Origin: Campylobacterales bacterium
Lineage (GTDB): Bacteria; Campylobacterota; Campylobacteria; Campylobacterales; Sulfurimonadaceae
Direction: 5' to 3'
Length of the DNA stretch: 60,452 bases
Assembly: GCA_024280035.1 (NCBI GenBank)
Contig: JAJRQV010000089.1
Span: forward strand, 1-60,452
Each line of letters begins with the position of its first letter. Within the stretch, counting starts at the first letter, position 1. Below are positions 40,997 through 59,798 of the stretch, piece by piece. Under the pieces are notes generated by a model. The model was not told where the DNA came from and did no database searches. It worked only from the letters and a program-made list of their open reading frames with translations. Both the position numbers and the translations under genes were made by a program.

Positions 40997-41028
40997 ATTG
41001 TATACCCTAACTGTGAAGACTTCGTGAA
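40997..41028 (-). promoter_or_regulatory. Paired-box promoter of copA (metal regulon)
   Basis: TTCACG (41028-41023), 5 nt, TTCACA (41017-41012), 9 nt, TACAAT (41002-40997). The -10 lies about 40 nt upstream of the copA ATG. Same geometry as eight other sites in the window. Confidence 0.8.
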
Positions 41029-41082
41029 AATTAAAATGAGAGAATTTTTATTTTTGTATAAAAAATAGTTTTTAGGTAAAAG

Positions 41083-41104
41083 AACCCCTCTTTTTTAAAG
41101 GGTT
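41083..41104 (-). terminator. Terminator hairpin after the TPR gene
   Basis: AACCC (41083-41087) pairs with GGGTT (41100-41104), with an additional A/T-rich partial extension into the loop. It lies directly after the stop at 41106 and is followed on the minus strand by CTTTTACC. Confidence 0.4.
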
Positions 41105-41105
41105 T

Positions 41106-41705
41106 TTATTGATTTAAATAGGCTCTTGCTTTGGTATCGGCAGGGTCTAAAATAATAATATCTTGATACACACCCAAGGCAAGTTTATCTTGTTTTGTAT
41201 CTACATAGACTTGAGCTAACTGTCCTAAAAAGTAAATATCCGTTGGATAAGAGGCTAACATCTTATAAATTATCTTCAGTGACTGCTTATACTCTTTGAG
41301 AGCATTAAGAGAAACAACCAGATAAGAATTAGCATAATAATTATACAAATCATCTTGTAAAATATCATAAATCATACGTGTAGCATCATTATGTTTTCCC
41401 ATTGCCTGATAGACCTGAATAAGCCCTAGTTTTGCCTCCACAGAAGTAGACACAAGGCTAATGGCTGTCTCATAATGTAAGATAGCATTTGTGTAGTTTT
41501 TATTCATATAAAAGAGCCATGCCAGACGAAAATTAGGAGTATATGCCTTTGGATACTTCTCATAAACTAATGTTAGCACCTTAATTGCATCCGTATAGTT
41601 TTGCATCTTCTCATAATTATAAGAGTCATAATAAGCCTGTTTAATAAAGTCTGAACTCGTAGCACTAAGATTCAAACTCAAAAATAATAAAATAATAAAA
41701 CGCAT
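41106..41705 (-). CDS. Exported TPR protein, last gene of the PqqD/ATP-grasp operon
   Basis: A 199-residue protein with a signal peptide (MRFIILLFLSLNLSA) and about four TPR units spread over the rest (YTDAIKVLTLVYEKYPKAY; YTNAILHYETAISL; DPADTKARAYLNQ). It is likely a periplasmic scaffold. Its ATG follows the stop of the 59-residue ORF with no gap, and the AAGGAG serving it lies inside that ORF, so the two are translationally coupled. No specific function is recognised. Confidence 0.75.
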   Translation of the reverse strand: MRFIILLFLSLNLSATSSDFIKQAYYDSYNYEKMQNYTDAIKVLTLVYEKYPKAYTPNFRLAWLFYMNKNYTNAILHYETAISLVSTSVEAKLGLIQVYQAMGKHNDATRMIYDILQDDLYNYYANSYLVVSLNALKEYKQSLKIIYKMLASYPTDIYFLGQLAQVYVDTKQDKLALGVYQDIIILDPADTKARAYLNQ

Positions 41706-41885
41706 CTATACTCCTTGGAAAATGTAGTTTAAAAATGAAGAAAGGTCATGCCCTAAAATATAACCTACAGAAGAAGGGCTCTTTTTACCCAGTAGAGTAA
41801 AGCCCTTATCCTCACACGCTAATATATTTTGTAAAGAACTATTTTGAAAATTGAGTTCTACAAAACATCTTAAAAAATTTATCAT
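41706..41885 (-). CDS. 59-residue ORF filling the gap in the PqqD/ATP-grasp operon
   Basis: ATG at 41885 overlaps the TGA of the transporter-peptidase gene (ATGA), and the stop TAG (41706-41708) abuts the ATG of the TPR gene. The product begins MINFLRCFVELNFQNSS and continues ILACEDKGFTLLGKK, with SSVGYILGHDLSSFLNYIF near the end. Two Cys, many Ser, Gly and aromatic residues. No homologue is recognised. Perfect packing between two coupled genes argues that it is translated. It could be a small subunit, an adaptor or the precursor peptide of a modification pathway encoded upstream. Confidence 0.6.
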   Translation of the reverse strand: MINFLRCFVELNFQNSSLQNILACEDKGFTLLGKKSPSSVGYILGHDLSSFLNYIFQGV

Positions 41886-43942
41886 TTTTTCATCTTTATT
41901 GTAAGTTTATTTATTTTTATACTCTTTATACCATTGGTGTTATCAAGAACAACACTTAGTTTCTGTTTAGAACCATTCAGTAAAATACCCTCAATATGGG
42001 TTTCATCTTTAAAGTTCCATTTTCCCTTAATCACATAGGCTCGAGGAACAAGCATTGCACCCATAGTCGTTAGGCTTGAAAATAGACTTTTTTTGCTATA
42101 ACGTCGAGGTAAATAATCATACCAAGACAGATTCTTTTTACTCCTAAGTGGCAGACGTGGTATAGCAAGGTAAAACTTCTGTAACCATGCCTTATCTTCT
42201 CCCTCATAATCATAAAAATAGAACATACCTGCCTCTTTAGCAAAATGCAAGATATTTCCATCATCATCTTCAAAATAAAATTTTCCTGAAAAGCGATTCA
42301 TCTTCACTTTTATAACTAAGTTATCAATGAGTTCTTCTTCTTGATAAACCTCATAAGCATACTCACTATCTAAGGTAAAGGAGAGTTTCTTATCTAATGC
42401 CTTATCATTAAAATAAGATTCAATTTCCATATGTTTAAGCGGATTTGCATAAAAATGTACATGATTTTTTTCTATATAACTTACAAAATGAAAAGGGAGT
42501 GTTTTTGAGCCTAAAAGAGCACTCTCTTGAACTTGAATATGGATGTGTGGAAGAGGGGAATAACCACTATTTCCACAAAGCCCAAGTATCTGCCCGGGTT
42601 CAATATATTCCCCTCTTTTCACTTTTATAGAATCTTTTGCAAAATGTGAAATCTCAACAAAATGTCCTTCATGGGTCTGAATAACAACATAATTTCCCCA
42701 GTTTTCAATAGTGTTGACCTCACCAATAAGGTTATCTTCTACATTAGCTTTTAAATCAACTACATATCCATAAGCAGGGGAGAGTACAGGTTTTTTGAAG
42801 GCATAATAATCTTCTAAAAAATCTCCCTTATTTTTAAAAGAGTGCCCCTCTTTGATAATAACAAAATCATACGCATATTTCCAATCACCCTGATGTGTCC
42901 ACTCATCATCAAAGGCCTGATAAACAGACCATTTCCCTGAAAAAGGTAAAAATACCTTTCTCTCATCTGCTCTAAAACGAAACAGAGAGAGGATATAAGA
43001 ACGCAGGGTCAGTTCAGGTGTTTTACGAATAACATAAGCAAACTCTTTAAGTTTAACCACTTGTAAAACAAACAAAAAAGAGATAGTAATAATATTAAAA
43101 GGAAGGGTAAAAACAGGAATCTTATAAATCGTCCAAAATGAAGAAGAGGCATCAATTAGAAGTACAGACATAGCAATTCCCATTAAGGACAGGGCAATAC
43201 TTCGAACAGAAGGCACAAGAAAAACTGTTCCTAAGGCGATAGCAATAAGAATATAATTAAAGGCATAAGGGTTATACATTGCAGCAGTAAAACTTCCTAG
43301 CATTAAAGAGTGTACTAATACGCCAAAATAAAATCCACCCAAAGAAAAGAGAAACATAATACGTGAATAAGAGAGTAAAATAAGGGCAAAAGCAAGACCA
43401 ATACTGGTATAAGGTAAAAAGAAAATCGTTCCTAAGGCACTAAAATAATTACTTAAAAACAGGGGTAAAAAACTTAAATCAAGAAGATGAGGTTTAACAT
43501 ACAAGGCTTGGGTATATAAAGCCGTATAATTAAGCGTAGCTAGGTAAATCAGTGTACTTACCATGGTAAAAGGTAGAGATAATATTGGTACAGATGCCTT
43601 TGCTAAAAACTTATATAAAACCATAGTCAACAAAAATGTAAATACAGAAGACATGGAAATTAAGATAATAGAAACAAAAGAGACTTGAAAAAGGTAACCC
43701 ACAGACATCCCCACCAAAAGAGGATTATAAATATAAAAACCATTTTCTAAAAAAGCAGCTTCCATACGAATAAAATGGGCAAAGGCAAGTACAACAATAA
43801 TAGCAATAAGCCCTGAAACAGCTACATTAACATTAAAAAAAGAGATGAGTAAAAGTACAATACCATACTTCGCATTTTGCAAAAACAAAATCTCTGCATA
43901 CGAAGCAATAATGGCATTTAAATAGTACTTTAATGTCTTCAT
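41882..43942 (-). CDS. Urea-transporter-like membrane domain fused to M23 peptidase domain
   Basis: Residues 1-300 hold about ten membrane helices with the urea-transporter-like motifs MEAAFLENGFYIYNPLLVGM and SLPFTMVSTLIYLA. Residues about 330-520 form an M23/LytM fold: WKYAYDF (metal Asp), SPAYGYVVDLKANVED, GNYVVIQTHEGHFVEISH, GLCGNSGYSPLPHIHIQV with the HxH metal pair. The first zinc His of HxGxD appears absent (KYAYDF), so catalysis is uncertain. The last 150 residues are beta-rich and unrecognised. The fusion suggests a channel-linked wall-facing or peptide-cleaving module. It follows the decarboxylase gene by 1 nt. Urea as substrate is not assured in this context. Confidence 0.8.
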   Translation of the reverse strand: MKTLKYYLNAIIASYAEILFLQNAKYGIVLLLISFFNVNVAVSGLIAIIVVLAFAHFIRMEAAFLENGFYIYNPLLVGMSVGYLFQVSFVSIILISMSSVFTFLLTMVLYKFLAKASVPILSLPFTMVSTLIYLATLNYTALYTQALYVKPHLLDLSFLPLFLSNYFSALGTIFFLPYTSIGLAFALILLSYSRIMFLFSLGGFYFGVLVHSLMLGSFTAAMYNPYAFNYILIAIALGTVFLVPSVRSIALSLMGIAMSVLLIDASSSFWTIYKIPVFTLPFNIITISFLFVLQVVKLKEFAYVIRKTPELTLRSYILSLFRFRADERKVFLPFSGKWSVYQAFDDEWTHQGDWKYAYDFVIIKEGHSFKNKGDFLEDYYAFKKPVLSPAYGYVVDLKANVEDNLIGEVNTIENWGNYVVIQTHEGHFVEISHFAKDSIKVKRGEYIEPGQILGLCGNSGYSPLPHIHIQVQESALLGSKTLPFHFVSYIEKNHVHFYANPLKHMEIESYFNDKALDKKLSFTLDSEYAYEVYQEEELIDNLVIKVKMNRFSGKFYFEDDDGNILHFAKEAGMFYFYDYEGEDKAWLQKFYLAIPRLPLRSKKNLSWYDYLPRRYSKKSLFSSLTTMGAMLVPRAYVIKGKWNFKDETHIEGILLNGSKQKLSVVLDNTNGIKSIKINKLTIKMKK

Positions 43943-43943
43943 T

Positions 43944-45290
43944 TTAAGCCTTTAAATACTCAGGAAGTACTTCACGTGTTTCAATATCTTTTAACTCTTC
44001 AGCTTCACGAATCAGATGATGTTTACCTTGAGTATCAATCAGTGCCACCGCAGGACGGTAACGAATAAACTGCATCCACTGTGTTATACTATACGCACCC
44101 ACGGGTGAAATAATCATATGATCACCACGTTTAAGGCGTGGCATCATTACTGAGTCATCAATAATATCAATATTCATACACAAGGGACCATTCACTAAAG
44201 AAGGCTCCATCATTCCATCGCGTTTTTCTGCTAATTCAAGGTTATACTTAAACCAAAAAGCAGTGTATAAAAGGTTAACACCCGCATCCATAATATAATT
44301 CATTCTTCCATCTGGAAGACGTTTTGTTCCGGTAAGTGATGTTATAAGATAACCCGCTTCATCAATAAGGTGACGTCCTGTTTCAAGATAAAGTTTAGGG
44401 TAGTTACCACTCTCTAAGTTCTCATATAAGGCAGAGGTAATGGCTTCGGCATAATCATCAATACTTGGAACAACTACTTCAGGTGGTTGGTACAGACCTT
44501 TAAGATGTGCCTTCGAAGCAAAACCACCTCCCACATCAAGATATTCAATAATAAAGTCTGTATTAGACTCTATCTCTTTCATCAGGTTCACCATTTTAAC
44601 AGTTTGAAGTTTATAAGCATTCGCATCTAACATAAAGGTACCAATATGCGAATGAAGCCCTGTAATCAAAAGTTTTCCACCGGCTTCAATACGCCGTACG
44701 GCATCCATCGCCTGACCACTTTCAATATTAAAACCAAAACGTGACCATTGCGGTTCAATACCCGTATTCATGTTTAGACGAATTGCCACAGGAACTTTCA
44801 CTCCTAACTCATCAGAGACCTTCTCTAAATCACTAATCTCATCAAAGGTATCAATATGAATTTTCGCACCTTCTTTAGCCGCTGTAAGTAAGGAGTGATA
44901 AGGTTTATAAGGACCATTAAAGATAATGTCTTTTCCCTCAACACCTGAGTTTCTTGCTTTTTCATATTCAAATTCACTCACCACCTCAGCAATAGCACCT
45001 TCTTGATGAAAGATTGAACAGATGGCTTTAAGATAATTGGTTTTATATGACCAACCAAACTGCACATTAGGATAACGTGAAGAGAAGGCTTCATATGCTT
45101 CTTGATAAAGTGAACGCATTTTTGATTCAGAAAAGACAAACAGAGGTGAACCATACGCATTAATTAACTCCGAAATACTTATGCCATCAATATTATCACG
45201 AATTTTATGCTGCATACTTGGCAGACCTGCTTTTGACATTGAACTTTGGATTTTTAAAATAGTTGGGCTTTCATAAACCTTTTTACTCAT
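43944..45290 (-). CDS. LysA-like PLP-dependent (fold III) decarboxylase with leader-like N-terminus
   Basis: A 448-residue fold-III decarboxylase of the diaminopimelate/ornithine type. WSYKTNYLKAI carries the PLP Lys; GLHSHIGTF, DVGGGFAS and LETGRHLIDEAGYL bind PLP phosphate; GPLCMNIDII holds the cross-subunit catalytic Cys. Substrate Arg/Glu residues cannot be assigned, so lysine synthesis is not assumed: the operon context points to a dedicated pathway. The first 25 residues (KKVYESPTILKIQSSMSKAG) precede the normal fold and resemble YxxP-type RiPP leader sequences. It overlaps the ATP-grasp gene by 8 nt. Confidence 0.85.
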   Translation of the reverse strand: MSKKVYESPTILKIQSSMSKAGLPSMQHKIRDNIDGISISELINAYGSPLFVFSESKMRSLYQEAYEAFSSRYPNVQFGWSYKTNYLKAICSIFHQEGAIAEVVSEFEYEKARNSGVEGKDIIFNGPYKPYHSLLTAAKEGAKIHIDTFDEISDLEKVSDELGVKVPVAIRLNMNTGIEPQWSRFGFNIESGQAMDAVRRIEAGGKLLITGLHSHIGTFMLDANAYKLQTVKMVNLMKEIESNTDFIIEYLDVGGGFASKAHLKGLYQPPEVVVPSIDDYAEAITSALYENLESGNYPKLYLETGRHLIDEAGYLITSLTGTKRLPDGRMNYIMDAGVNLLYTAFWFKYNLELAEKRDGMMEPSLVNGPLCMNIDIIDDSVMMPRLKRGDHMIISPVGAYSITQWMQFIRYRPAVALIDTQGKHHLIREAEELKDIETREVLPEYLKA

Positions 45291-46323
45291 AACTCTCTCC
45301 TTGCGTTGCCAAATGGCTTAATTCTTGTATATCTGCTATGGTCTCATAGGTGTATCTAATCATCATCTTTCCTGCTTGATAATTACTTTGGGTATCCACC
45401 TCTTTACCCATACTAAAGTCAACAAGTCTTTGCGGTAGATTAACGCCTAAACCTGTTGCAAAATAGACCCACGCAGGAAAACGAGGGTTAATTTCAATCA
45501 TATAAATTGTATTTCCATCCACCATACACTCTAACTCAAAAGCTCCTCTCCATGAGGTCTTTTTAAGAAATTTCTCTGCCACTTCCATTAATGCCTTATG
45601 CTCAATAGAGATACCATTCCAGAACTTACCCATTGCTGTAGTGGTCATCTTTTTTGCAGCAACCATACCAAGGCTACCCCCTTTTCCATCACCCACACCT
45701 ACAACATTAAGCTCATCACCCTTAACCATCTCTTGCACTAAAATAGGATAACCCCACTCATTAGCAATTTCACTAAATCGGCGAATTGCATCACTCAAAT
45801 TAGAAACAATATATGCCTTATAATAGTTTCCTTTTACAACAGCTGGAAAGTCTAGTTCTTTTAATGCCTCTTTTAACTCCTCAACATTAGTTGTTTTAAA
45901 GGTTTTGGGGTAAAAAATACCTAAGGCTTCAGAAAGTGGAGCAAGATGCTCTTTAGCACGTAAATCAAACTGTTCTTGTGTTGGTAAGAAGCTTTTAATA
46001 CCCTCTTTTTCTAAATCGCTTTGATGTTTAATATATAAGGGGAGTTCGGCATCCAAGTTAGGAAGCACCATATCTAAACCCATCTTCTGTTTAATCTTTA
46101 AAAGGTGTAAAAAGATAGCTTGCCATCCTTTGTTGGGGTAGGGAAGTACAAAAGACTTATCAATCACAAAACCCATATAATTACCAGGGTCTTGAATATC
46201 ATAAGAAAGACCAATGGTAGTGACATCTAAATTTGACTCTTTTAAACTACGTGCTACACCCACTCCTGGACCAGGATTATCAGTATCATTAATGCCACTT
46301 AGGGCAATCTTTAAACCCTTCAT
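45283..46323 (-). CDS. ATP-grasp ligase (carbamoyl-phosphate-synthase-like)
   Basis: A 346-residue enzyme: N-terminal Rossmann-like domain (LKIALSGINDTDNPGPGVGVA), central FPAVVKGNYYKAY with the ATP-binding Lys, LVQEMVKGDELNVVGVGD, and FELECMVDGNTIYMIEINPRFPAW with the Mg-binding Glu and Asn. These are complete ATP-grasp signatures, so it should join a carboxylate to an amine through an acyl phosphate. The substrates are unknown. It sits 1 nt after a PqqD-like gene and overlaps a decarboxylase gene, a grouping suggesting peptide or amino-acid conjugation. Confidence 0.9.
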   Translation of the reverse strand: MKGLKIALSGINDTDNPGPGVGVARSLKESNLDVTTIGLSYDIQDPGNYMGFVIDKSFVLPYPNKGWQAIFLHLLKIKQKMGLDMVLPNLDAELPLYIKHQSDLEKEGIKSFLPTQEQFDLRAKEHLAPLSEALGIFYPKTFKTTNVEELKEALKELDFPAVVKGNYYKAYIVSNLSDAIRRFSEIANEWGYPILVQEMVKGDELNVVGVGDGKGGSLGMVAAKKMTTTAMGKFWNGISIEHKALMEVAEKFLKKTSWRGAFELECMVDGNTIYMIEINPRFPAWVYFATGLGVNLPQRLVDFSMGKEVDTQSNYQAGKMMIRYTYETIADIQELSHLATQGESYE

Positions 46324-46324
46324 T

Positions 46325-46564
46325 TTAATCCACTAAACCAAAATTTTTAAGCTGTTTAATAAAGTCTAAAACATCCGTAAAACTATCTAAGGTTTCAACC
46401 TCATAAACAGTGCTTAACTGCTCAGCAATTTCACGTTCATTTTTACCCTCTTTAACCGCTTTAATAATCTCAATAGCTGTTTCATTAAGAGTAAAACTTT
46501 CCCCACTCATTGGGTCAAAAGCAAATCCAGAATCGTTTAAGGCTAGGGTCTCTACTCTGCTCAT
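46325..46564 (-). CDS. PqqD-like peptide-binding protein (RRE fold)
   Basis: A 79-residue protein with the PqqD/RRE pattern: GFAFDPMSGESFTLNETAIEI, then VKEGKNEREIAEQLSTVYEV and a closing helix ending KNFGLVD. PqqD-like proteins bind leader peptides of ribosomal peptides and present them to modifying enzymes. No PQQ synthesis gene lies nearby. It is the first gene of the 46564-41106 operon, with AAAAGGA upstream of the ATG and a probable -10 at 46652-46647. The binding partner may be the decarboxylase N-terminus or the 59-residue product. Confidence 0.85.
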   Translation of the reverse strand: MSRVETLALNDSGFAFDPMSGESFTLNETAIEIIKAVKEGKNEREIAEQLSTVYEVETLDSFTDVLDFIKQLKNFGLVD

Positions 46565-46709
46565 TATATTTCCTTTTTAATTATGTGTAATGATAGGGTT
46601 TATATGTTAATGTAGCGTTAAAATCATCTTTATTTATGAAGGTTTTATTATAATTTTCATTTATGAAGGCTCTAGGCAAAACAAATATCACTTTTAATTG
46701 TTTTATCTC

Positions 46710-46741
46710 CTCACAAAGGCTTCACAGATCTTTACTATAAT
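46710..46741 (+). promoter_or_regulatory. Paired-box promoter pointing into a non-coding region
   Basis: CTCACA (46710-46715), 5 nt, TTCACA (46721-46726), 9 nt, TATAAT (46736-46741). A perfect member of the metal-regulon promoter set, yet no ORF follows on the + strand. Confidence 0.75.
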
Positions 46742-46747
46742 TACCCT

Positions 46748-46835
46748 ACCGTTTATAACACGGCTACTAAAACTTTCTATTTAAACCCTTATAATTACTT
46801 AACTTCCCCCCCTTGGTAATTGGGTTTATTTAGGA
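46748..46835 (+). ncRNA. Candidate metal-regulated small RNA with seven-C loop
   Basis: The expected start is about 7 nt after the -10 at 46736-46741. A short 5' stem (CCGT/ACGG) is followed by a long hairpin: AAACCC (46783-46788) and AATTAC (46793-46798) pair with GTAATT (46816-46821) and GGGTTT (46822-46827), then ATTT. The loop holds CCCCCCC (46806-46812). The hairpin can act as terminator for this RNA and, on the other strand, for the cus operon. Both ends are inferred. Confidence 0.5.
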
Positions 46836-46877
46836 GTTTTATTAAACTTCTTGTAAATAAGATTACTAAATTACATT

Positions 46878-47129
46878 CTAATAATGAGCTTTGTATTTAT
46901 CTTCTAAAATCTTTTTGTTTTGCTGTATACGTTTATTAAGAATATTATAGCCTTGAACATAAGCAAGGGCACCTATTTTCTCTTTTTGATAAGCCTGAGT
47001 AAGGTGTTTAAGTGCAAGTTCATCTTTTTGTAGATGTACCTCTTGCACGCGGGTACTATTTTTGTGTAAGCATCCACTCATAATAAAAAAGAAGAGTATT
47101 AAAGAAAGAATACAGCTTAATTTTTTCAT
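46878..47129 (-). CDS. Small lipoprotein at the end of the cus operon
   Basis: An 83-residue product from ATG 47129: signal sequence with lipobox IMSGC, then a helical charged domain (LALKHLTQAYQKEKIGAL; YNILNKRIQQNKKILEDKY). The start at 47129 overlaps the preceding TAA by one base (TAATG) and is preferred to the upstream ATG at 47147. It is probably anchored in the outer membrane facing the periplasm. No metal motif is seen and no function is recognised. Confidence 0.7.
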   Translation of the reverse strand: MKKLSCILSLILFFFIMSGCLHKNSTRVQEVHLQKDELALKHLTQAYQKEKIGALAYVQGYNILNKRIQQNKKILEDKYKAHY

Positions 47130-47503
47130 TACATTGAACTTCCACATTTACCTGTACCACACTTCATTGAAGACTCTTTTTTCTTTATTTCTGGTGCAGG
47201 AACATCAGTACCGCACCTTCCTGTACCACACTTCATAGTAAGTTTGTTACCACCCGGTTCACGCACACAGTTATACGCCGCCTTGGTTGTTTTGGCACTA
47301 AGAACACACTCTTTTCTTGTGTCATCTTTGCGCATCTGTTTTAAGATATTTTTTTTCTTTTTAGCTAAGGCAGAGTTACCATCAAACATATTAGTACCAC
47401 ATTTTCCTGAACCACATTTCATTCCTGGAGCAGTAGAACCCTGCTGTTTTTTATCACCACAAGCAATAAAAACTAAGACAAAAACAATCAGTAAGTATTT
47501 CAT
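47129..47503 (-). CDS. MKCGxGxCG-repeat metal-binding lipoprotein
   Basis: A 124-residue protein with signal and lipobox (VLVFIAC) and three copies of a MKCG-type motif: MKCGSGKCGTNM, MKCGTGRCGTDV and MKCGTGKCGSSM. Each offers two Cys and nearby Met, so Cu(I) or Ag(I) binding is probable. Two more Cys lie between. It is encoded directly after CusA (1 nt gap), suggesting metal capture in the periplasm for the efflux complex. The motif resembles the EGKCG repeats of MNIO-modified copper-binding peptides, but no DUF692 modifying enzyme is in the window. Confidence 0.8.
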   Translation of the reverse strand: MKYLLIVFVLVFIACGDKKQQGSTAPGMKCGSGKCGTNMFDGNSALAKKKKNILKQMRKDDTRKECVLSAKTTKAAYNCVREPGGNKLTMKCGTGRCGTDVPAPEIKKKESSMKCGTGKCGSSM

Positions 47504-47504: not shown

Positions 47505-50500
47505 CTACTCCCCTTTTTTTAAAAGATAAATCTGATAAATATCAAATAAGATAGGAATAATAATAAGACTTAGAACAGCTGAACTTATCACCCCACCTAA
47601 CATAGGTGCCGCAATACGTTGCATTACCTCTGAACCAACACCATGGGTGTACATAATAGGAGCAAGCCCTGCAAGAATAGCAAAAACTGTCATTAACTTT
47701 GGTCTAACACGCTGAACAGCACCCTCATAAATCGCCGCATTAAGCTCTTTCATTCCAAAACTACTTTCATATTTCTGTCGAGACTCATCTACAGACTCTT
47801 GCAGATACACAATCATTACAATAGCAGTCTCTGCTGCCACACCAAGCAAGGCTAAAAAACCAACAATAACAGCAATACTCATTGCGAAATTAAGTATATC
47901 AATATAAATAAGCCCTCCTAATAGTGCAAAAGGTAGGGTGAAAAAAACAATCAAAGTAGGAATCATCTGTTTTAAAGCAAAATAAATTAAGACTAAGATA
48001 CTTAAAAGTACCGCAGGGATAATCCAAACTATCTTAGCCATAGCCGACTCAAGATATTCAGACTGCCCTGCCCACTCTACATAATATCCTGCTTCAAAAT
48101 CAATTTCATCAATTAACTTTTTAGCCCCTTCTTTATAACTACTGGCTGTTACACCTTCGTTGGGTGTAATATAAACAAAGGTCACAGGGCTTGCCATTTC
48201 TGACTTAATCACAGAAGCACTCTGTCGATAAGAGACATTAGCAAAGGTTGATAAAGGAACAAAACCAAGTTTTGTTTTAATCTGAATATCAGCAATACTT
48301 TCTAAAGAGCGTCTCTCCCCCCCATCTAAACGAAGGGTAATAGGGTATCTTTCTAAACCCTTATACATCGTAGAGACTTTCATCCCACCAATAGCCAAAG
48401 AGGTATATTCTAGTAAGGCATCTTTAGCTAAACCATAACGTTGTAGTTTCTCTTCATCAATATCTATATCTATATAATACCCTGCACTTGCCTGATCAGC
48501 AAAAACAGAAAGGGTGTCTTTATAATTACGGAGTTTATCTTCAATTGCTTTTCCATACTTCTGAAGCCCTTCGGCATCTTTTCCGTACAGTTTAATTCCT
48601 AAAGGAGTACGAATACCTGACAGAAGCATATCTATACGCCCACGAATTGGATAAGTCCACGAATTTGTTAATCCAGGGACTTGAAGGGCATCTTCCATCT
48701 CTTGACGAAGTTTACTATAGGTCATACCCTCACGCCACTCACTCTCAGGCTTAAGGGTAATAATAGTCTCTAGCATTCCAAGTGGAGCAGGGTCAGTTGC
48801 TGTATTAGCACGTCCCCCTTTTCCAAAAACCATTTCAACCTCAGGAAAAGACTTAATAATTTTATCTGTCTTTTGTGTTAGTGCTTTAGACTGGTCAATA
48901 GAGATACCATAAGGGGTTACAGGCATATACATAAAACTCTGTTCATTAAGCATTGGCATAAACTCCCACTTTAGTGAGTTAAACAGAGGGTACATATAAC
49001 CTAACGAGGCAAGTACAATAACAATAACAAGGTATTTAAGTTTAAGCCCATAAACAATAATAGGATGATATAACCAGATAAAAAAACGATTTAGAGGATT
49101 TTTATTTTCGGGTAAGATTTTTCCTTTTACAAAAAACACCATAAGCACAGGAACAAGAGTAATACTTAGAATTGCTCCTGCTGCCATAGCAAAGGTTTTT
49201 GTAAAAGCAAGGGGTGTAAAAAGAAGCCCTTCTTGACCTGAAAGTGCAAAAATCGGTAAAAAAGAGACCACAATTAGAGCCAAAGCAAAAAAGATAGGAC
49301 GACCCACTAATTGAGATGATTTTAAAATAATATCAATACGTTCCTCATTTGTAGGCACTCTTCCTTGTTGATGCTCAAACTTATGCAACATCTTATGTGC
49401 ATTTTCTATCATCACAATAGAAGCATCAACCATCGCACCAATAGCAATAGCAATTCCCCCTAAGGACATAATATTAGAACCAATATTAAAAAGGTACATC
49501 AATAAGAAGGTTGCCCCAACCGTTAATGGTAAAACAATAAGTACAATTAAAGAAGAGCGAAAGTGCATCAAAAAAAGCCCAATAATAACCACAACAATAA
49601 TAGACTCTTCAATCAGAGTGCTTTTTAGTGTATCAACCGCTTTTTCAATTAAAGAAGAGCGGTCATATACTACGGTAACATCAACCCCTTCTACCTTTAA
49701 CTCTTTCATTTTTTTATCAATACGTTTTATTTCCGAATAAACATCTTCACCATAACGTAGCAGAACAATTCCTCCTACGACTTCACCATCTCCGTTTAAG
49801 TCTGCAACACCACGACGTGCCGCAGGAGTGAGTTCAACCCTAGCAATATCACCTAGGGTAATCTGTATCCCCTCTTTTTCAGTAACAACAAGACCACGAA
49901 TATCATCCAAATCTTTTACATAACCCTTAGCTTGAACCATCCATTCAAAACCATTTTCAATAACTATACGACCACCCGTGTCATTATTATTGGCTCTTAA
50001 GACCTTAGCAATATCTTTAATACTCAGGTTATAACGGATTAAATTATCATTATTAACACTTACTTGATAGGTAGGAATAAACCCACCAATACTGGCTACT
50101 TCAGAAACACCATCTACGCCCATAAGAGCATATTTATAATAATAATCTTGTAAGGTTCTTAACTCAGCTAAATTCTTTGTTTGAGATGACAGTGCATACT
50201 CATATGCCCATCCTACACCACTAGCATCTGGTACTAAAGAGATCTCCATAGAAGCAGGTAGTTGCGACTGAATAGAAGAGAGTTGTTCTAAAACACGAGA
50301 CCTTGCCCAATAAAGGTCAGTCCCTTCTTTAAAAATAATATAAATCAGACCATTTTCATATGTTGAATATCCACGTACCGTATCAATATTCGCAATGGCT
50401 AAAAATTGAGATACTAAAGGATATGTTCCTTGATCCTCAATAATTTCAGGAGACTGCCCTGCCCAGTTTATCTGTACAATTACCTGAGGGGGAGAGAGAT

Positions 50501-50709: not shown

Positions 50710-50722
50710 CCCTTCACGTACC

Positions 50723-51724
50723 TTAGTACAATCCATTAATCTGCGCATCCGAATCCATCATAAATAGAGCATTATTAACCACTTCATCACCTTCGCTTAA
50801 ACCACCAAGTACAGCATAATGATTCGCATCAATAACCTTAACTTGTATCTCAAGGGGTTCGTACTCACCTGCAAACTCACCTATCATAAAGACATAAAAC
50901 GTTCCGTTTTTACGAATAACTGCCGTTGTGGGTAAAACAAGTTGCTCTTTTTCGTTTTTTAAAGAGGTCACTGTTGAATACATGCCAGGGAAGAGCTCAT
51001 GATTATCATTATCTATACGTAAACGAAGGGTTAGGGTAGCTACCTTTGGGTCAAGTTCAGGGTAGAGTAGTTTTTTGTCTGTCTTATACACTTTTTTTAA
51101 GCCCTTAAACCTTAGTTCATAATTTTTAGTACTTGACAAACGGGCACGTTCTTCTTCAAATAGTTTTACCTCCACCCAGACCTCATCTAAATTTACAATT
51201 TGAAAGAGTTTTGCTTTAGCATTAAAGGCAGAACCCTTCTCGATTCCTTTGATAAATACATAACCATCAACAGGAGCATAAATTGTAGTGTTGGCTTGAG
51301 CCTTTCCTTTTTTAAGGATAGCCTTAATTTCAGAATCCTTAATATTTAGCAGTTCTAATTTCAATCTAGCACTCTCTAACATTCCTTTATTTGGGCGTTT
51401 ACGAGTATAACGATAAGCATTTAGATACTCATCTTTTGCCTTAAATACCTCAGGTGAATAGACCCTTACAAGGGGTTCACCTTTTTTAACTTTTTGATAA
51501 ATTTTATCCGCATAAAGTTTAACAACATAACCACCAAAACGAGGGGAAATATCATACATACGTGCATCATCAGCCTTAACAAATCCATAATTTTTGATTT
51601 TTTGACTAATCAACTCTTTTTTAACTTTTACCGTTTGTACCGAAAAGAGCTGTTCTACAGTAGCTTCTCTCGCAACAAGCAATAGGGGTAAAAAGAGTAA
51701 ACATGATTTTAAAAATAGTTTCAT
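50723..51724 (-). CDS. cusB: CusB-like periplasmic adaptor of the RND pump
   Basis: A 333-residue membrane fusion protein with signal peptide (MKLFLKSCLLFLPLLLVAREA), then GFVKADDARMYDISPRFGGYVVKL, a helical hairpin, IYAPVDGYVFIKGIEKG and the beta-barrel segment LFPGMYSTV. It links CusA to the outer-membrane channel and in homologues hands metal to CusA. It is shorter than E. coli CusB (about 400) and lacks the N-terminal metal-binding tail. It overlaps the stop of cusC by one base. Confidence 0.88.
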   Translation of the reverse strand: MKLFLKSCLLFLPLLLVAREATVEQLFSVQTVKVKKELISQKIKNYGFVKADDARMYDISPRFGGYVVKLYADKIYQKVKKGEPLVRVYSPEVFKAKDEYLNAYRYTRKRPNKGMLESARLKLELLNIKDSEIKAILKKGKAQANTTIYAPVDGYVFIKGIEKGSAFNAKAKLFQIVNLDEVWVEVKLFEEERARLSSTKNYELRFKGLKKVYKTDKKLLYPELDPKVATLTLRLRIDNDNHELFPGMYSTVTSLKNEKEQLVLPTTAVIRKNGTFYVFMIGEFAGEYEPLEIQVKVIDANHYAVLGGLSEGDEVVNNALFMMDSDAQINGLY

Positions 51725-52911: not shown

Positions 52912-53298
52912 CTAAAAGTTCATTGAGGTTTTAACACGAGATTTTTTACCCTCAGTTGGTGTAATAAAGATATGAAACTGCCATGTTCCGCCCATCGCTA
53001 CATTAACCGTAACCTCATATTTTCCATTACCTAAGTCTTTAGCATTGGCTTTTGATTTCATTGCAGGCATACCGGGCATTGCAGGCATAAAAGCTTTAAC
53101 ACTTACCTTTGCGCCTTGAGGAACTTTACCCGCTTGTGTAATATCTAAGATAAAAGTATTTGAACCTGTTCCAATTGGTTTTTCTGAGCTAATGTGAACC
53201 TTTGTTGTTCTAAACTTTGCATCTTTTTCAAAGGCAGCTGCTTGAAGCAGCGAGGCAGTAAGTGTTAAACTTAATAAAACTAATAATATCTTTTTCAT
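52912..53298 (-). CDS. YtkA-like periplasmic protein, first gene of the cus operon
   Basis: A 128-residue protein with signal peptide (MKKILLVLLSLTLTASLLQA) and an immunoglobulin-like beta domain. The segment VKAFMPAMPGMPAMKSKA is Met-rich and the motif KYEVTVNVAMGGTWQFHIFI is typical of the YtkA/FixH-like family. The Met cluster suggests Cu(I) contact in the periplasm. It leads the cus operon, 27 nt after the -10 of a paired-box promoter. Confidence 0.8.
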   Translation of the reverse strand: MKKILLVLLSLTLTASLLQAAAFEKDAKFRTTKVHISSEKPIGTGSNTFILDITQAGKVPQGAKVSVKAFMPAMPGMPAMKSKANAKDLGNGKYEVTVNVAMGGTWQFHIFITPTEGKKSRVKTSMNF

Positions 53299-53325: not shown

Positions 53326-53357
53326 ATTGTAACTTCTTTATGTGAGGGCTATGTGAG
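53326..53357 (-). promoter_or_regulatory. Paired-box promoter of the cus operon
   Basis: CTCACA (53357-53352), 5 nt, CTCACA (53346-53341), 9 nt, TACAAT (53331-53326), then the YtkA-like gene at 53298. Confidence 0.8.
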
Positions 53358-53401: not shown

Positions 53402-53433
53402 TTCACATAAGCTTCACACTTCTTTTATAAACT
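53402..53433 (+). promoter_or_regulatory. Paired-box promoter of the DUF302 gene
   Basis: TTCACA (53402-53407), 5 nt, TTCACA (53413-53418), then TAAACT at the 9-nt spacing (53428-53433), or TATAAA at 7 nt (53426-53431). Divergent from the cus promoter. Confidence 0.7.
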
Positions 53434-53457
53434 ACTTCACTAAAAAAGGATATGTAT

Positions 53458-53841
53458 ATGCGCTATATAGTAAAAAGTTCTAAAAGTGTAAAAGAGGTTG
53501 CTCAACGTTTAAAAGTGGGTATTGCGGCTAATGGCTTTGGTATTTTACATACCTATAACCTAGAAGATGCCTTAGATAAAAAAGGAATTACCCTAGGAGA
53601 ATCTTGCTGTATATTTGAGATATGTAACCCTAAACTAGCAAAAGAAGTTCTTAGTAGAGATATGAGCATGAATATGTTACTTCCTTGTCGTATCTCAGTC
53701 TATACAGACAAGGGAAGCACCTATATAGGTATAATTAAACCTTCGGCTTTACTGCAAGATTCAGAGCATTCACAAGAACTTTTACTCATTGCTGATATTG
53801 TAGAAGCCGCAGCAAAAGAGATTATAAATGAGTCTAGTTAA
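53458..53841 (+). CDS. DUF302 family protein
   Basis: A 127-residue protein from ATG 53458, chosen because AAAGGA ends 7 nt upstream; ATG 53452 would add two residues. The pattern VKSSKSVKEVAQRLKVGIAANGFGILHTYNL, then CIFEICNPKLAKEVL and LLPCRISVYTDKG is that of DUF302, a small alpha-beta domain of unknown activity often found near metal and redox genes. Two Cys (SCCIF) and a third near LPC could contact thiophilic metals. No signal peptide, so cytosolic. It has its own paired-box promoter. Confidence 0.85.
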   Translation: MRYIVKSSKSVKEVAQRLKVGIAANGFGILHTYNLEDALDKKGITLGESCCIFEICNPKLAKEVLSRDMSMNMLLPCRISVYTDKGSTYIGIIKPSALLQDSEHSQELLLIADIVEAAAKEIINESS

Positions 53842-53898: not shown

Positions 53899-53930
53899 TA
53901 CACAAAATCCTCACATTATCCTAGTATAAT
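53899..53930 (+). promoter_or_regulatory. Paired-box promoter of the 155-residue unknown gene
   Basis: TACACA (53899-53904), 5 nt, CTCACA (53910-53915), 9 nt, TATAAT (53925-53930), 25 nt before the ATG at 53956. Confidence 0.75.
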
Positions 53931-54461: not shown

Positions 54462-54746
54462 TTACTTTCCATCTTCTTGTGTTTTAGACTCTTCAATAAA
54501 TGCTAAAATATCCTTTGTCTCTTGCTCTGTTAAACCCGCACGAACTCGCATATGTTGCATAGAATATTTCCATGCTCTTTTGCTTAAGTCAGCCGGTTCC
54601 CTTAGGTTATGACATCGCATACAGACATCTGACCAAATAGTAGCACCATTAGCACTATTAGGAGTAATCTTTTCGCCAAAAATAGAGGCACTTAATCCGG
54701 ATGTTAGCAGACATGAAATAACTACTACTTGTAATATTTTTTTCAT
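54462..54746 (-). CDS. Small mono-heme cytochrome c
   Basis: A 94-residue protein with signal peptide (MKKILQVVVISCLLTSGLSA), one heme motif CMRCHN near residue 42, and MQHMRVRAGLTEQETKDILAFI with a likely axial Met. It is a minimal cytochrome c of about 75 mature residues. It follows the interrupted porin gene by 12 nt and is likely co-transcribed from the paired-box promoter at 56072-56103. A link between periplasmic electron transfer and metal stress is inferred. Confidence 0.8.
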   Translation of the reverse strand: MKKILQVVVISCLLTSGLSASIFGEKITPNSANGATIWSDVCMRCHNLREPADLSKRAWKYSMQHMRVRAGLTEQETKDILAFIEESKTQEDGK

Positions 54747-54758
54747 CTTTTTCTCCTC

Positions 54759-56036
54759 TTAGAAACCAAAGGCTAGCTGGGTAAGAACACGATTGTTATT
54801 CACACTCGCATCCCCCGCATTATCTTCATTATCATTATATTCATAGGCGATTTTTGCAATTAAATTGTTTGCGAAAAGGTAATTCAGACCAATAGCCCAT
54901 TGGTTTCGTTCAACCTCTGGATTATGGTAATCACTGTAACGTAAAACTGGTTCAATTGGTAAAAAAGAAAATTGATAAGAGGCTTGGGCATACCAAGCTC
55001 TCCATGTTCCACCCTCAAGTGAACTTTTGTCATTATCACCAATTTTTTGTTTAATATATTCAGCTTTGATATCAATAGCATTAAGGTTATACATAACATC
55101 TACTCCTGCAACGTCATAATCACGCTGAAGCTTATCATCAATAGCAGAACCTCCCGTAATCGTAGTCGCAGTTAATGTTTCAGATACCTTACCCTTTGCG
55201 TAGGAGACGCCAATTTCCATCCCACCTACAGGGTTAAGGGCAAAACGTCCACCCCATGTTTTTGAAGCATCTCCTGAACTCGTTTTACCACTCGCATCAA
55301 CAATAACATCCCCATCAGGTGCTTCTGCAAAAGTTGGCGCATTACCAACAAAAATAACATAATTACTTCTGATATCTACCACCTTAGGCAAACCACCTCT
55401 TAAGGCAGCTCCAATAAAAGAGGTAGGCGCCGCACCATCATGACCAAAACCCACTGGAGTAGCAGGAAGTTTGTTAATCCATGAGGGGTGTTGGTTTTGA
55501 ACAAACTGACCAACAGGCGACATAAATTTACCAAGCTGAAGCCCCATATAATTATTTAAAAAGAGGGTGCCTGCGGCATATTCTAGCTCAGTATCTGTCT
55601 CCCCTTGATTATTTGTTGTGAACTCCAACTCGCCCTCAAATTGGAAAATATCTCCATACTGATAATGGAAAATAGGAGCAAACTTTACACCTGAAAATTC
55701 ATTATCACTTCCTTGTTGATCTGTCCAATCAAAGGAGGCATAACCTGCAAGTTGAAAACCTGATTTAGCATTACTTTCAAGTTCTGTTTGCATCTGTATA
55801 ACCTCTTCTTTTAAGGCTTGAAATTCATGTGATTTAGTGTCAACAGTCTCGCCTTCACTGTAGCTTGTGGAACGAGCCCGTAATGCATCATTAGACTTTT
55901 TTAGTTATCCAACTAACTGCTTAAGTTCTTGCATATCTTGGCGAAGTTGTGATAGGTCTTCCTGATTCGCAGGCACAGCAAAAAGTACAGAAGAAAGTAC
56001 AGCACTAAGCGTAATACTGGTTATAAATGTTTTCAT
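54759..56036 (-). pseudogene. Coiled-coil outer-membrane porin interrupted by in-frame TAA
   Basis: From ATG 56036 (GGGAG 5 nt upstream) the frame encodes a signal peptide (MKTFITSITLSAVLSSVLFA) and a coiled coil (QLRQDMQELKQLVG), then meets TAA at 55905-55907 (codon 44). The frame continues LKKSNDALRA...QALKEEVIQMQTELESNA and a 330-residue barrel ending LTQLAFGF. Without the stop it would be a 425-residue trimeric porin with a normal stalk. Restart at ATG 55793 would give a barrel without signal peptide. The promoter carries paired TCACA boxes, so the gene belonged to the metal regulon. A cytochrome gene follows. Confidence 0.75.
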
Positions 56037-56071: not shown

Positions 56072-56103
56072 AGTATAGGCTTGAGATGTGAAGTCTTTGT
56101 GAA
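56072..56103 (-). promoter_or_regulatory. Paired-box promoter of the porin-cytochrome pair
   Basis: TTCACA (56103-56098), 5 nt, TTCACA (56092-56087), 9 nt, TATACT (56077-56072), ending 35 nt before the ATG at 56036. Confidence 0.8.
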
Positions 56104-56132: not shown

Positions 56133-56579
56133 TTAACTCGTTCTATTAGAAGCTTCAATAACTGCTTTCATCACCCTGCCTTTTGCTTTCATACCCGTAA
56201 TAATTGCTTGAAACATTAGTGTGTTTTTTGTCATCTGTGTTGTCTCAACATCAAGGTCAACACTGTTTCCATCATTTCGACTTAGGTGCGAACCTCTATA
56301 AAAGAGTTTGGCTTTATCGATCTCATCTTCCGAACTTGATTTAAAGTATTTACCCTGTGTAGCAGCAAGCTCTAACTTTTTTATACTCTTTTTATCTTTA
56401 TCTTTTTGAAAAAATTCTTTTGCTTCGTTTTGAAGGATTTTTGCAAAATTTATATCTCTTGCTTTATAAAAAGGGGTGTCTATATTCGCAATATTTCCAG
56501 CTATCAGTTTCCCTCTAGCTGAACGATAATCAAGTGCCTTTTCTGCTAAAGCATTGACCTTATCACTTATATTACTCAT
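56133..56579 (-). CDS. flgB: Flagellar rod protein FlgB, isolated from other flagellar genes
   Basis: A 148-residue protein with the rod-protein signature near the N-terminus (RGKLIAGNIANIDTPFYKARDINF) and the C-terminal helix MTKNTLMFQAIITGMKAKGRVMKAVIEA. FlgB forms the proximal rod at the MS ring and is secreted by the flagellar export gate. Usually flgB heads flgB-flgC-fliE; here neither partner is present. It follows a lipoprotein gene by 2 nt and would be driven by a paired-box metal promoter. It could be the only flgB or a duplicate. Confidence 0.85.
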   Translation of the reverse strand: MSNISDKVNALAEKALDYRSARGKLIAGNIANIDTPFYKARDINFAKILQNEAKEFFQKDKDKKSIKKLELAATQGKYFKSSSEDEIDKAKLFYRGSHLSRNDGNSVDLDVETTQMTKNTLMFQAIITGMKAKGRVMKAVIEASNRTS

Positions 56580-56581
56580 GT

Positions 56582-57286
56582 TTAACTTCTATTACCTTGG
56601 TGTTGAAGTATTCCTGCTCTCAATTTTTTAAGGTTTTGAGTTGAACTATTTAACCAGTTATCTAAAACAGGTTTCACATCTTTAAAAACAAGTTTATCTG
56701 CATCAACATCAACCTCTTTACCTTTTTCCAGACGCATCATCTGAATAAGTACTGCGCCTGTTTGGGCATCTTTAATTCTACCTTCACCTAAGATACGAAT
56801 ACTTTCATCTTTAAAAGTAGCACGGGCTATCATCGTGCCCACAAACATCATTGGCATATAACTCATTCCATTTAAGTCATCAAACTCAACACTCACAGAA
56901 GAAATTGAGCCCTCATACACTAAGGTGTTTGCATGATCAGGTGAGTCAACAAGTGTATAAATAGACTCACGCTGAATCATCTGTTTATATGCCATAGTAA
57001 GGTACTCAGAGATCTGACTTATTAAAAGTTTTTGCTCTGAAGTTTGATCTTTTTCATTAATAGCTGCAAGCACTTTTACTGGAGCAATATAAATATTTTT
57101 ATAATGAGTAAAGTCCGCCTTTGGCGAAAAATATGTTTTAGTACCTTCGAGTTTAGCGCTCTGTTTAAAATCCTCTTTAGTGTCTAAAAACTGAGAATCA
57201 TTAACCGTCATGTTTTTACTTGAACATCCTGAGATAAAAAGCATAGCCCCTATTAAAGAACTGCTTAAAAGTAGAGATAATTTCAT
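56582..57286 (-). CDS. DUF3313-like outer-membrane lipoprotein
   Basis: A 234-residue protein with lipobox LFISGC, then YKNIYIAPVKVLAA, LISQISEYLTMAYKQMI and TLVYEGSISSVSVEFDD. This resembles the DUF3313 lipoprotein family, small periplasmic domains related in fold to the FlgT/LPP20 middle domain. A segment YMPMMFVGTMIA is Met-rich. It is 2 nt upstream of flgB, so a rod- or envelope-related role is possible. Transcription starts at a paired-box promoter shared with the divergent HD-GYP gene. Confidence 0.7.
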   Translation of the reverse strand: MKLSLLLSSSLIGAMLFISGCSSKNMTVNDSQFLDTKEDFKQSAKLEGTKTYFSPKADFTHYKNIYIAPVKVLAAINEKDQTSEQKLLISQISEYLTMAYKQMIQRESIYTLVDSPDHANTLVYEGSISSVSVEFDDLNGMSYMPMMFVGTMIARATFKDESIRILGEGRIKDAQTGAVLIQMMRLEKGKEVDVDADKLVFKDVKPVLDNWLNSSTQNLKKLRAGILQHQGNRS

Positions 57287-57309: not shown

Positions 57310-57341
57310 ATTATATTAAGAGTGTGTGAGTGCTTTGTGAA
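57310..57341 (-). promoter_or_regulatory. Paired-box promoter of the lipoprotein-flgB pair
   Basis: TTCACA (57341-57336), 5 nt, CTCACA (57330-57325), 9 nt, TATAAT (57315-57310). Back to back with the HD-GYP promoter, only 2 nt apart. Confidence 0.8.
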
Positions 57342-57343
57342 TG

Positions 57344-57375
57344 TTCACATAACACTCACAAAGTTATAATAAAAT
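57344..57375 (+). promoter_or_regulatory. Paired-box promoter of the HD-GYP gene
   Basis: TTCACA (57344-57349), 5 nt, CTCACA (57355-57360), 9 nt, TAAAAT (57370-57375), 17 nt before the ATG at 57393. Confidence 0.75.
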
Positions 57376-57392: not shown

Positions 57393-58622
57393 ATGAAAAT
57401 ACACTCTCGTATCCTAAAACCCTTACTTATTTTTTCTCCTATTATTGCCTTGTTCGCTTCACTTTTCACTCTGTATATTCAACTATCTCAAATGGAAGAG
57501 AAGGTTCTTGTTCTAGCTAAAAATGAGGTCAAACATTTTACAAAAGACCTTGAATTAAGAGATGATATGCATACGTATACACTCGAACTCTCTGATACAA
57601 ACTTTTTAAATATCTCTATCTTAAATACAGAAGGTTTACGTATTTACTCTAATCAAACCAAAGATTACAGACAGATACAAAATGAATTAAAAAAGATAGA
57701 CCACCATCTCACTACTAAATCAGACCCTGAGTATCAAGAACGCCTTATCCATAACCATATTAAAAAACAGTTCTATTTTCAGTTTAAAGCCCCCATACAA
57801 ACAAAAAACTTTAGAGGTTATGTACAGGGGCTTTATCACATCTCTTCTCAAGAGGTTGACGACATTTATACTAATATATTTTACAGTCTTGTTCAACTTC
57901 TAAGTACAGTTTTTATTACCACCTTGCTCTTATATCCCCTTATTGTTTATCTTAATAAGAGTTATATGCAACAGAGCCAAAACCTTTTACAGGCCAATCT
58001 TGAGATTATGTCCGTACTTGGTAGTGCTATAGCCAAACGAGATAGTGATACCAATGCCCATAATTACAGAGTAACACTTTATGCAATAGCCTTTGCGAAA
58101 GAACTTAGATTTACTCCTGAAAAGATGATGGGTTTAATCAAAGGCGCTTTTTTGCATGATATTGGGAAGATAGGTGTCTCAGACATTATCTTACTTAAAC
58201 CCAATAAGCTTACTTCAGATGAGTTTGAAAAAATGAAACTTCATGTTGAGTACGGGGTTGATATTATTTCAAAAAGCAGATGGTTAGACGATGCAAGGGA
58301 TGTTATCGCTTATCATCATGAGAAATATAATGGTCAGGGTTATAATCAAACCCTTAAAGGTACAGAGATTCCTCTTAATGCTAGGCTTTTTATGATTTGT
58401 GATGTGTTTGATGCTCTTATCTCAAAACGTCCTTATAAAAAAGAGATGAATTTTAATGACAGTATAAAAAAACTAAAAGGAGAGGCAGGTTCTCATTTTG
58501 ATCCCCATCTTGTTGATATTTTTCAGAGTTTTATTTTTCCTGTATTTAAAAATATTACACAGCTTAAAGATGAAGAGCTACATCAACTTCTAATGGAAAA
58601 ACTCAAAGAGTTTTATCATTAA
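57393..58622 (+). CDS. Membrane-bound HD-GYP domain protein
   Basis: A 409-residue protein from ATG 57393 (AAAGG 8 nt upstream; the earlier ATG 57330 lies before the promoter -10). A first membrane helix (LLIFSPIIALFASLFTLYI), a periplasmic sensor of about 130 residues and a second helix (STVFITTLLLYPLIVYL) lead to an HD domain: AHNYRVTLYA, FLHDIGKIGVSD, HVEYGVDIIS, AYHHEKYNGQGYN, CDVFDALISKRPY. The GYP motif reads GYN. Metal ligands are all present, so c-di-GMP hydrolysis is plausible. It may link metal stress to motility or biofilm. Confidence 0.88.
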   Translation: MKIHSRILKPLLIFSPIIALFASLFTLYIQLSQMEEKVLVLAKNEVKHFTKDLELRDDMHTYTLELSDTNFLNISILNTEGLRIYSNQTKDYRQIQNELKKIDHHLTTKSDPEYQERLIHNHIKKQFYFQFKAPIQTKNFRGYVQGLYHISSQEVDDIYTNIFYSLVQLLSTVFITTLLLYPLIVYLNKSYMQQSQNLLQANLEIMSVLGSAIAKRDSDTNAHNYRVTLYAIAFAKELRFTPEKMMGLIKGAFLHDIGKIGVSDIILLKPNKLTSDEFEKMKLHVEYGVDIISKSRWLDDARDVIAYHHEKYNGQGYNQTLKGTEIPLNARLFMICDVFDALISKRPYKKEMNFNDSIKKLKGEAGSHFDPHLVDIFQSFIFPVFKNITQLKDEELHQLLMEKLKEFYH

Positions 58623-58690: not shown

Positions 58691-59071
58691 CTACATATAT
58701 CCCATCATACGTGCTAAAATAGGTCTCCATTCATTAGGGGAATAAAGACTCTTCTCTCTAAAACCATGACATTGCGTACAATATCTTTGCGTAATAATAT
58801 AATCTTTTTCTTTTGAAGAACCTGCTTTCATTGAGTGGTCATTTTTGTCCATTTTAATACCAGATCCACACTTCATTGCAGCACTACTAGACATATTAGA
58901 ATCATGTTTCATCTCTTTTGAGTCATGTTTCATTCCACCCATCATCATGCCACATTTCATCATACCCGAAGAGTATTTATCATCACTTCCACCCATACCA
59001 CCCATCATCATACAGCCGCTTAATATGCTTACTAAAGAGAGCATTATCACTGTGCCAGTAAAGTACTTCAT
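58691..59071 (-). CDS. Met/His/Cys-rich lipoprotein with cytochrome-like CTQCH motif
   Basis: A 126-residue product with lipobox ILSGC, a Met-rich stretch (CMMMGGMGG), MKCGMMMGGMKHDS, MKCGSGIKM and then YCTQCHGF, a single heme-binding motif, followed by SPNEWRPILARMMGYM. The first part is an obvious Cu(I)/Ag(I) sponge; the second resembles a minimal cytochrome c. After the TAG (58691-58693) the frame continues with protein-like sequence (KTGNNFPDDYESIMINHYYE) to TAA at 58619, suggesting a lost or optional 23-residue tail. Third gene of the 59743 operon. Confidence 0.75.
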   Translation of the reverse strand: MKYFTGTVIMLSLVSILSGCMMMGGMGGSDDKYSSGMMKCGMMMGGMKHDSKEMKHDSNMSSSAAMKCGSGIKMDKNDHSMKAGSSKEKDYIITQRYCTQCHGFREKSLYSPNEWRPILARMMGYM

Positions 59072-59072
59072 C

Positions 59073-59225
59073 TTATACTACCTTCTGCTTATTAGGCTTA
59101 TCCTTCATCATCATACCACATTTTCCACCACCAGAATTGTGCCCATTTGAATCATTAGAATATCCTCTTGAGATACATCCACTCATTAAAAGAATAAGAG
59201 CGGCACTAGCTAAAAAAAGTTTCAT
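59073..59225 (-). CDS. 50-residue KCGMMM lipoprotein
   Basis: ATG at 59225 overlaps the TAA of the outer-membrane gene by one base (TAATG), and its stop is 1 nt before the ATG of the next lipoprotein. It has a signal with lipobox LLMSGC, then a polar stretch and SGGGKCGMMMKDK. The KCGMMM motif is shared with the next gene and suggests Cu(I) binding. It is too short for routine gene finders but is tightly packed in the operon. Confidence 0.75.
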   Translation of the reverse strand: MKLFLASAALILLMSGCISRGYSNDSNGHNSGGGKCGMMMKDKPNKQKVV

Positions 59226-59737
59226 TAGAAATTCACCGAAATTCCGATAGATCCACCATTTACACCACTTCCAAAAGAGCCATAACTTACGTAACCGCTA
59301 AAGTTATTTCTAAAGTTATATAAAATACTTAATCCATAAGCAAAACTACTACTGTCTTTATAGATATTATCACCTAAGTTAGGCCAAACAACACCTGCAC
59401 GTGGACGAAGATAAAATTTTGTATCCGCAATCTTATAAGAGTACACAATGTACGTACCTACTGTTAAAGCAATGTCTCTGTTACTTGGTCCATAACCTGA
59501 ACTACTATTTAGGTTATCATTGTCCATATCTACCATCAGAGGATTTAGTTCAGCTTCAAGACCAAAACTATTGTCTTTATCACCCAAGAGATAACCCAGA
59601 CGTCCGATTGGACCAAAACCTGTATTATTTGTATAATCCGTGTCTAAAACACTCATTCCCATATCAACATAAACGCTTCCCGCATTTAAACTTGTAGATA
59701 GAAGAGCGACACAGGCACTTAATATTATTTTTTTCAT
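59225..59737 (-). CDS. Small outer-membrane barrel, first gene of the MKCG lipoprotein operon
   Basis: A 170-residue product from ATG 59737 (the ATG at 59743 adds MC). Signal peptide MKKIILSACVALLSTSLNA, then an OmpW/OmpA-like eight-stranded barrel pattern (GSVYVDMGMSVLDTDY; FGLEAELNPLMVDMD; FYLRPRAGVVWP) ending SIGISVNF. It may be a pore or membrane anchor for the metal-binding lipoproteins encoded downstream. Its promoter (59767-59798) has the paired TCACA boxes. Confidence 0.75.
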   Translation of the reverse strand: MKKIILSACVALLSTSLNAGSVYVDMGMSVLDTDYTNNTGFGPIGRLGYLLGDKDNSFGLEAELNPLMVDMDNDNLNSSSGYGPSNRDIALTVGTYIVYSYKIADTKFYLRPRAGVVWPNLGDNIYKDSSSFAYGLSILYNFRNNFSGYVSYGSFGSGVNGGSIGISVNF

Positions 59738-59766
59738 ACACATAAATTCTCCTTTATTAAAGGAAA

Positions 59767-59798
59767 ATTATATTCAGAGAGTGTGAGGGTTTTGTGAG
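59767..59798 (-). promoter_or_regulatory. Paired-box promoter of the MKCG lipoprotein operon
   Basis: CTCACA (59798-59793), 5 nt, CTCACA (59787-59782), 9 nt, TATAAT (59772-59767). Confidence 0.8.

Follow-up and report, generated by a model that had tools for sequence, protein, structure and literature searches.

The two-component system CrdRS of Helicobacter pylori and the crdAB-czcBA genes correspond to HP1365/HP1364 and HP1326-HP1329, respectively. The operon, arranged in the order crdA-crdB-czcB-czcA (PMC12319023, PMC9182242), is induced by copper through CrdRS (PMC12319023, PMC9696931). In the CrdRS literature that was examined, the scope of which excludes the original 2005 study (Waidner 2005), no consensus CrdR binding site was found. 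As regards promoter structure, architecture I of Salmonella PhoP is characterized by a direct-repeat box at the place of the -35 element, with a fixed distance to the -10 box and one orientation (PMC3335776).

The window, that is, the whole stretch of 60,452 nucleotides from a Campylobacterales bacterium that was analyzed, contains a locus sharing features with both systems (table 1). As in H. pylori CrdRS, an OmpR-family response regulator (RR1) is paired with a membrane histidine kinase (HK1), and a small CrdA-like YtkA protein is followed by CusC-, CusB-, and CusA-family genes (53298-47505), an order that is kept in other families. Unlike the H. pylori system, the locus forms an island of ten or more sites that adds copA, DUF302, HD-GYP, porin/cytochrome, MKCG lipoprotein, and flgB paralogue genes, the regulator pair is doubled, and the regulator has a site of its own. 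As in PhoP architecture I, two direct hexamers about 11 nt apart stand where the -35 element belongs, in one orientation and at a fixed distance from the -10 box. The hexamer is YTCACA here and (T/G)GTTTA in PhoP, and the distance to the -10 box is 9 nt here versus 12 nt in PhoP, each by its own definition. Moreover, PhoP responds to a different signal and uses several architectures, whereas the regulon described here uses essentially one. We consider it very likely that this 32-nt layout comprises an operator and a -10 box, and that the promoters of a copper efflux regulon are activated through it by a CrdR-type response regulator (OmpR/PhoB family).

A sequence-only reading of the window had listed nine sites with one exact 32-nt layout, and all nine were present and read as claimed when the window was inspected directly. 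Its total was one short, since a tenth site (38124-38155) had been overlooked; the ten are packed into about 22 kb, and their layout holds about 35 bits of information (small sample, uncorrected). When YTCACAWARNCYTCACA-N9-TATAAT was searched with at most three mismatches, exactly the nine listed sites were matched in the window, and no match was obtained in 100 dinucleotide shuffles. In the whole genome (2.51 Mb), the same pattern had 13 matches, 9 of them inside the 19 kb that hold the nine listed sites and four in the other 2.45 Mb, while a reversed control pattern had none; these numbers come from consensus-pattern searches in a draft genome, not from a calibrated model. Chance thus does not account for the sites. 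The tandem boxes without the -10 box had 12 matches in 2.5 Mb at one mismatch, namely the nine, one upstream of the second copy of the regulator (C60:4276), and a further two. At two mismatches, the boxes without the -10 box were rejected as a signal (34 matches against 36.9 expected by chance), so it is the full layout that carries the signal.

Eight of the nine listed sites stand just upstream of a gene, as had been noticed, and 46710-46741 is the exception. The distance from the -10 box to the start codon was 17-39 nt for the copA, crdA-like, DUF302, 155-aa, DUF3313 lipoprotein, HD-GYP, and 172-aa outer-membrane genes; the value for the porin gene was about 35 nt.

Table 1.— Sites with the 32-nt layout, regulators, and genes of the island (window positions)
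Feature	Position	Strand	Remark
Tenth site, TCCACA-N5-TATACA-N9-TATAAT (TCCACAGAGGCTATACACTTTTGCACTATAAT)	38124-38155	-	6 nt before RR1 ATG
Site before copA	40997-41028	-	39 nt from -10 to ATG
Perfect-consensus site	46710-46741	+	no ORF downstream on own strand
Site before crdA-like gene and cusC-cusB-cusA-MKCG operon	53326-53357	-	27 nt from -10 to start codon
Site before DUF302 gene	53402-53433	+	
Site before 155-aa protein gene	53899-53930	+	
Site before porin-cytochrome c pair	56072-56103	-	counterpart in L066 before porin orthologue
Site before DUF3313 lipoprotein and flgB paralogue	57310-57341	-	
Site before HD-GYP gene	57344-57375	+	back to back with 57310-57341
Perfect-consensus site before outer-membrane 172-aa protein	59767-59798	-	orthologous site in sister genome G001
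HK1, histidine kinase of RR1	36320-37492	-	one in-frame stop codon
RR1, OmpR-family response regulator, CrdR-like	37461-38117	-	Response_reg and Trans_reg_C
copA, copper P1B-ATPase	38843-40957	-	
MKCG-repeat lipoprotein	47129-47503	-	no Pfam family above cut-off
cusC-cusB-cusA (crdB-czcB-czcA like) RND efflux genes	47505-52899	-	
crdA-like YtkA-domain periplasmic protein	52912-53298	-	Pfam family common to Helicobacter-like CrdA
DUF302 protein	53452-53841	+	
Porin and small cytochrome c	54462-56036	-	porin start near 56036, in-frame stop near N-terminus
DUF3313 lipoprotein and flgB paralogue	56133-57286	-	
Membrane HD-GYP protein	57393-58622	+	
MKCG-type lipoprotein and outer-membrane 172-aa protein	58691-59743	-	
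HK2 (second histidine kinase), C-terminal part	59824-60452	-	HisKA and HATPase_c

Considering the regulators, a second copy (RR2), 61% identical to RR1, was found on contig C60 together with the N-terminus of HK2. C60 and the window share exactly 141 bases, at the end of the former and the right end of the latter, and thus the kinase truncated at 60452 belongs with RR2 as its partner. The site preceding RR1 makes this gene a candidate for autoregulation; RR2 is preceded by a weaker tandem-box site (C60:4276), the best -10 box of which lies one base further off. Only 6-7 nt separate the -10 box from the ATG in RR1, RR2, and the copies in the sister genomes G001 and G005 (window 38111-38155; L220:4276-4315), and from this spacing the regulator mRNAs should be leaderless. 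HK1 and the island porin (54759-56036, - strand) each contain a single in-frame stop, which reflects either real decay or an assembly error.

In E. coli CusRS and Pseudomonas CopRS, too, copper export of the CusCBA and CopA types is under the control of a two-component system. A copper-silver regulon under a CusR/CopR-type member of the proteobacterial heavy-metal regulator family would account for the same target classes, a CusCBA-type RND pump plus CopA. Against it, RR1 scored 86.2 bits with TIGR01387 (the CusR/CopR/SilR family), far below the cut-off of 279.2, and the operator is a direct repeat, unlike the palindrome of CusR. The sequence-only reading had remarked that the boxes do not match this palindrome, which agrees with our genome search: the palindrome had one match with two mismatches, outside the island, where 4.6 were expected. 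This explanation, already weakened by both tests, is very improbable. In a tree, RR1 and RR2 clustered with the response regulators adjacent to crdA in families f9, f18, and f20 (support 0.84), and 11 paralogues of their own genome fell outside this clade; the named H. pylori CrdR was not in the tree. Because of the low TIGR01387 score, the lack of a CusR palindrome, and this grouping, CrdR-type appears to be a better name for RR1 than CusR.

The conservation of the layout was investigated in relatives, as the sequence-only reading had proposed. The motif recurred at two or fewer mismatches in 81 of 228 genomes of the same family, with more than 100 matches versus 4 for the reversed pattern. 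It repeatedly stood before the same genes, namely the crdA-like gene, copA, cusA, DUF302, OMP172, MKCG, and the regulator itself, with the start codon usually 20-35 nt past the -10 box. An RR1 orthologue (48-67% identity) was often divergently adjacent. Some matches, especially in genus g14, stood before unrelated genes. Across the 228 genomes, the motif and an RR1 orthologue (at least 51% identity) were both present in 49, the motif alone in 32, the regulator alone in 28, and neither in 119 (Fisher P 7e-10, a value inflated by shared ancestry). The discordant genomes, that is, 32 of the 81 motif genomes without a close RR1 orthologue and 28 of the reverse kind, are partly explained by draft genomes and box variants.

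The same geometry was recovered when loci were collected by protein. Among 132 upstream regions of loci chosen by regulator homology, with both spacings left free, 25 of 38 strong matches had the 5/9 spacing, and none was seen in shuffles. In a second set, fetched by the CrdA protein and not by the motif, NNCACA-5 nt-NNCACA-9 nt-(-10) preceded 41 of 49 crdA orthologues across the order, with at most one error allowed in the two CACA cores, and shuffles gave an average of 0.085; a few genomes were common to both sets. Counts at spacings 3/9 and 7/7 in the crdA set were set aside as register slides in CACACA runs. Promoters of families f4, f5, f9, f14, f18, and f20 were also read by eye, and some copies in f9 and f18 were weak. 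In three f14 genomes (1.6 Mb), TCCACAATTTTTACACA-N9-TATCAT was found before crdA, and the CrdA of one of them strongly matched the copper resistance protein in PDB chain 9ll2 (E 1.2e-65); the three genomes presumably belong to Helicobacter pylori or close kin. A search with the YtkA family had no Helicobacter among the matching controls listed.

The sequence-only reading had regarded the 11-nt box repeat as typical of OmpR-family regulators and as replacing the -35 element, and the genes as a probable copper regulon. Both views gain support from the layout being kept before orthologous copper genes, adjoining the same regulator, and co-occurring with it. Judged against hundreds of relatives, reaching as far as Helicobacter-like genomes, the layout is very probably the operator of the copper-responsive CrdR regulator. 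The silver part of the proposed regulon would have CusA-type homology as its sole pointer. We also asked whether one promoter could have been spread by recent duplication, or the sites could be due to chance. They do lie close together in one island, but their 9-nt spacers and flanks differ from site to site, and the layout is also present in orthologous promoters of distant families, a conservation that refutes this explanation and leaves it a negligible probability.

Based on the CrdR-type interpretation, excess copper would be sensed by a CrdS-type kinase, leading to the phosphorylation of CrdR. Phosphorylated CrdR, as a head-to-tail dimer, would occupy the two hexamers 11 nt apart in place of the missing -35 element and recruit RNA polymerase to the -10 box, which lies 9 nt further downstream. 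The genes induced in this way would be copA, those of the crdA-cusCBA efflux operon, including the MKCG lipoprotein gene, the accessory envelope genes, and the regulator gene itself. The dimer binding and polymerase recruitment are proposed by analogy with PhoP architecture I; binding itself, activation rather than repression, phosphorylation, and copper as the signal are what we infer from the regulator family and H. pylori CrdRS. The genomes with the motif or the regulator alone, the matches before unrelated genes, the two regulator copies in the genome, the stop in HK1, and one perfect site without a gene are points against this interpretation.

The half-sites themselves were found to vary with the regulator. 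Where the regulator was only 43-50% identical to RR1, the boxes read TACACA or TGCACA, with the same target genes downstream, and in relatives with a diverged regulator the half-sites usually changed as a pair (TT..TT, TA..TA, TG..TG). Both regulator types occur together in several genomes, which makes it probable that two paralogous regulons exist; small GKCG-rich and DoxX-like genes often follow the second. At loci L083, L107, L113, L162, L171, and L186, boxes of the TACACA type lie ahead of genes for small, secreted, GKCG-rich proteins and of DoxX-like genes, which resemble copper-binding peptide clusters, and a second CrdR-like paralogue is present in many of these genomes.

A further box group, CACACATTNTCYACACA-N9-TATAAT, has the same geometry and is scattered in the genome (C9:30, C13:2538, C34:25927, C47:22442, and C99:36184), which points to another OmpR-type regulon. 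The geometry is thus not unique to copper, and by itself it names no regulator. This group is what could be cited for the view that the layout is a promoter class of another OmpR-family regulator (e.g., an HsrA/CosR-type orphan) and that the copper genes are merely clustered. Yet the YTCACA version hardly occurs outside the copper island and the regulators' own promoters, and it tracks RR1 orthologues across genomes, making that view unlikely.

The exceptional site at 46710-46741 points at the 3' end of the MKCG/cusA operon. The 100 nt after it (46748-46850, + strand) fold better than shuffles (z -3.7), with a predicted hairpin that has a C-rich loop. When the region 46690-46878 was sought in 60 relatives, nothing was conserved beyond a 22-nt match, so the putative RNA is either specific to this genome or not real; Rfam gave no match over the island. 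The site may serve a copper-controlled antisense or small RNA, or may be a promoter that lost its gene through a rearrangement beside the PqqD/ATP-grasp cluster.

What appears to be new is the definition of a candidate operator, the age of this operator, and the island form of the regulon, enlarged and presumably autoregulated. A broader joint reading, which we put forward tentatively and regard as possible at best, is that the exact geometry was kept order-wide, from environmental bacteria to Helicobacter, while the half-site letters co-evolved with the regulator, and that in this genus it controls an enlarged island regulon, with duplicated regulators on leaderless mRNAs and a copper-controlled structured RNA starting from 46710. 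Given a defined operator, copper regulons throughout the order, probably that of Helicobacter among them, would become readable from sequence alone. The operator would also connect several uncharacterised families, namely DUF302, the MKCG lipoproteins, and the proteins of 155 aa and 172 aa, with the defence against copper, which are testable predictions, and the paired change of half-sites and regulator would offer a natural series for the evolution of OmpR-family specificity.

Several other features were observed in and around the island. Between copA and the MKCG operon (41882-46564, - strand) lies a cluster of PqqD-like, ATP-grasp, PLP decarboxylase, and urea-transporter/M23 fusion genes, which may encode peptide-modification or amino-acid ligase functions. 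Off the island, at about 3963-4125 of L222 (G000 C13), a copper-type site stands before an MKCG gene with a broken reading frame, which seems to be a decayed member of the regulon. The flgB paralogue (56133-56579, - strand), with a copper-type promoter ahead, is 61% identical to the other flgB on contig C17, and the sister genome G005 likewise has a flgB copy in its island.
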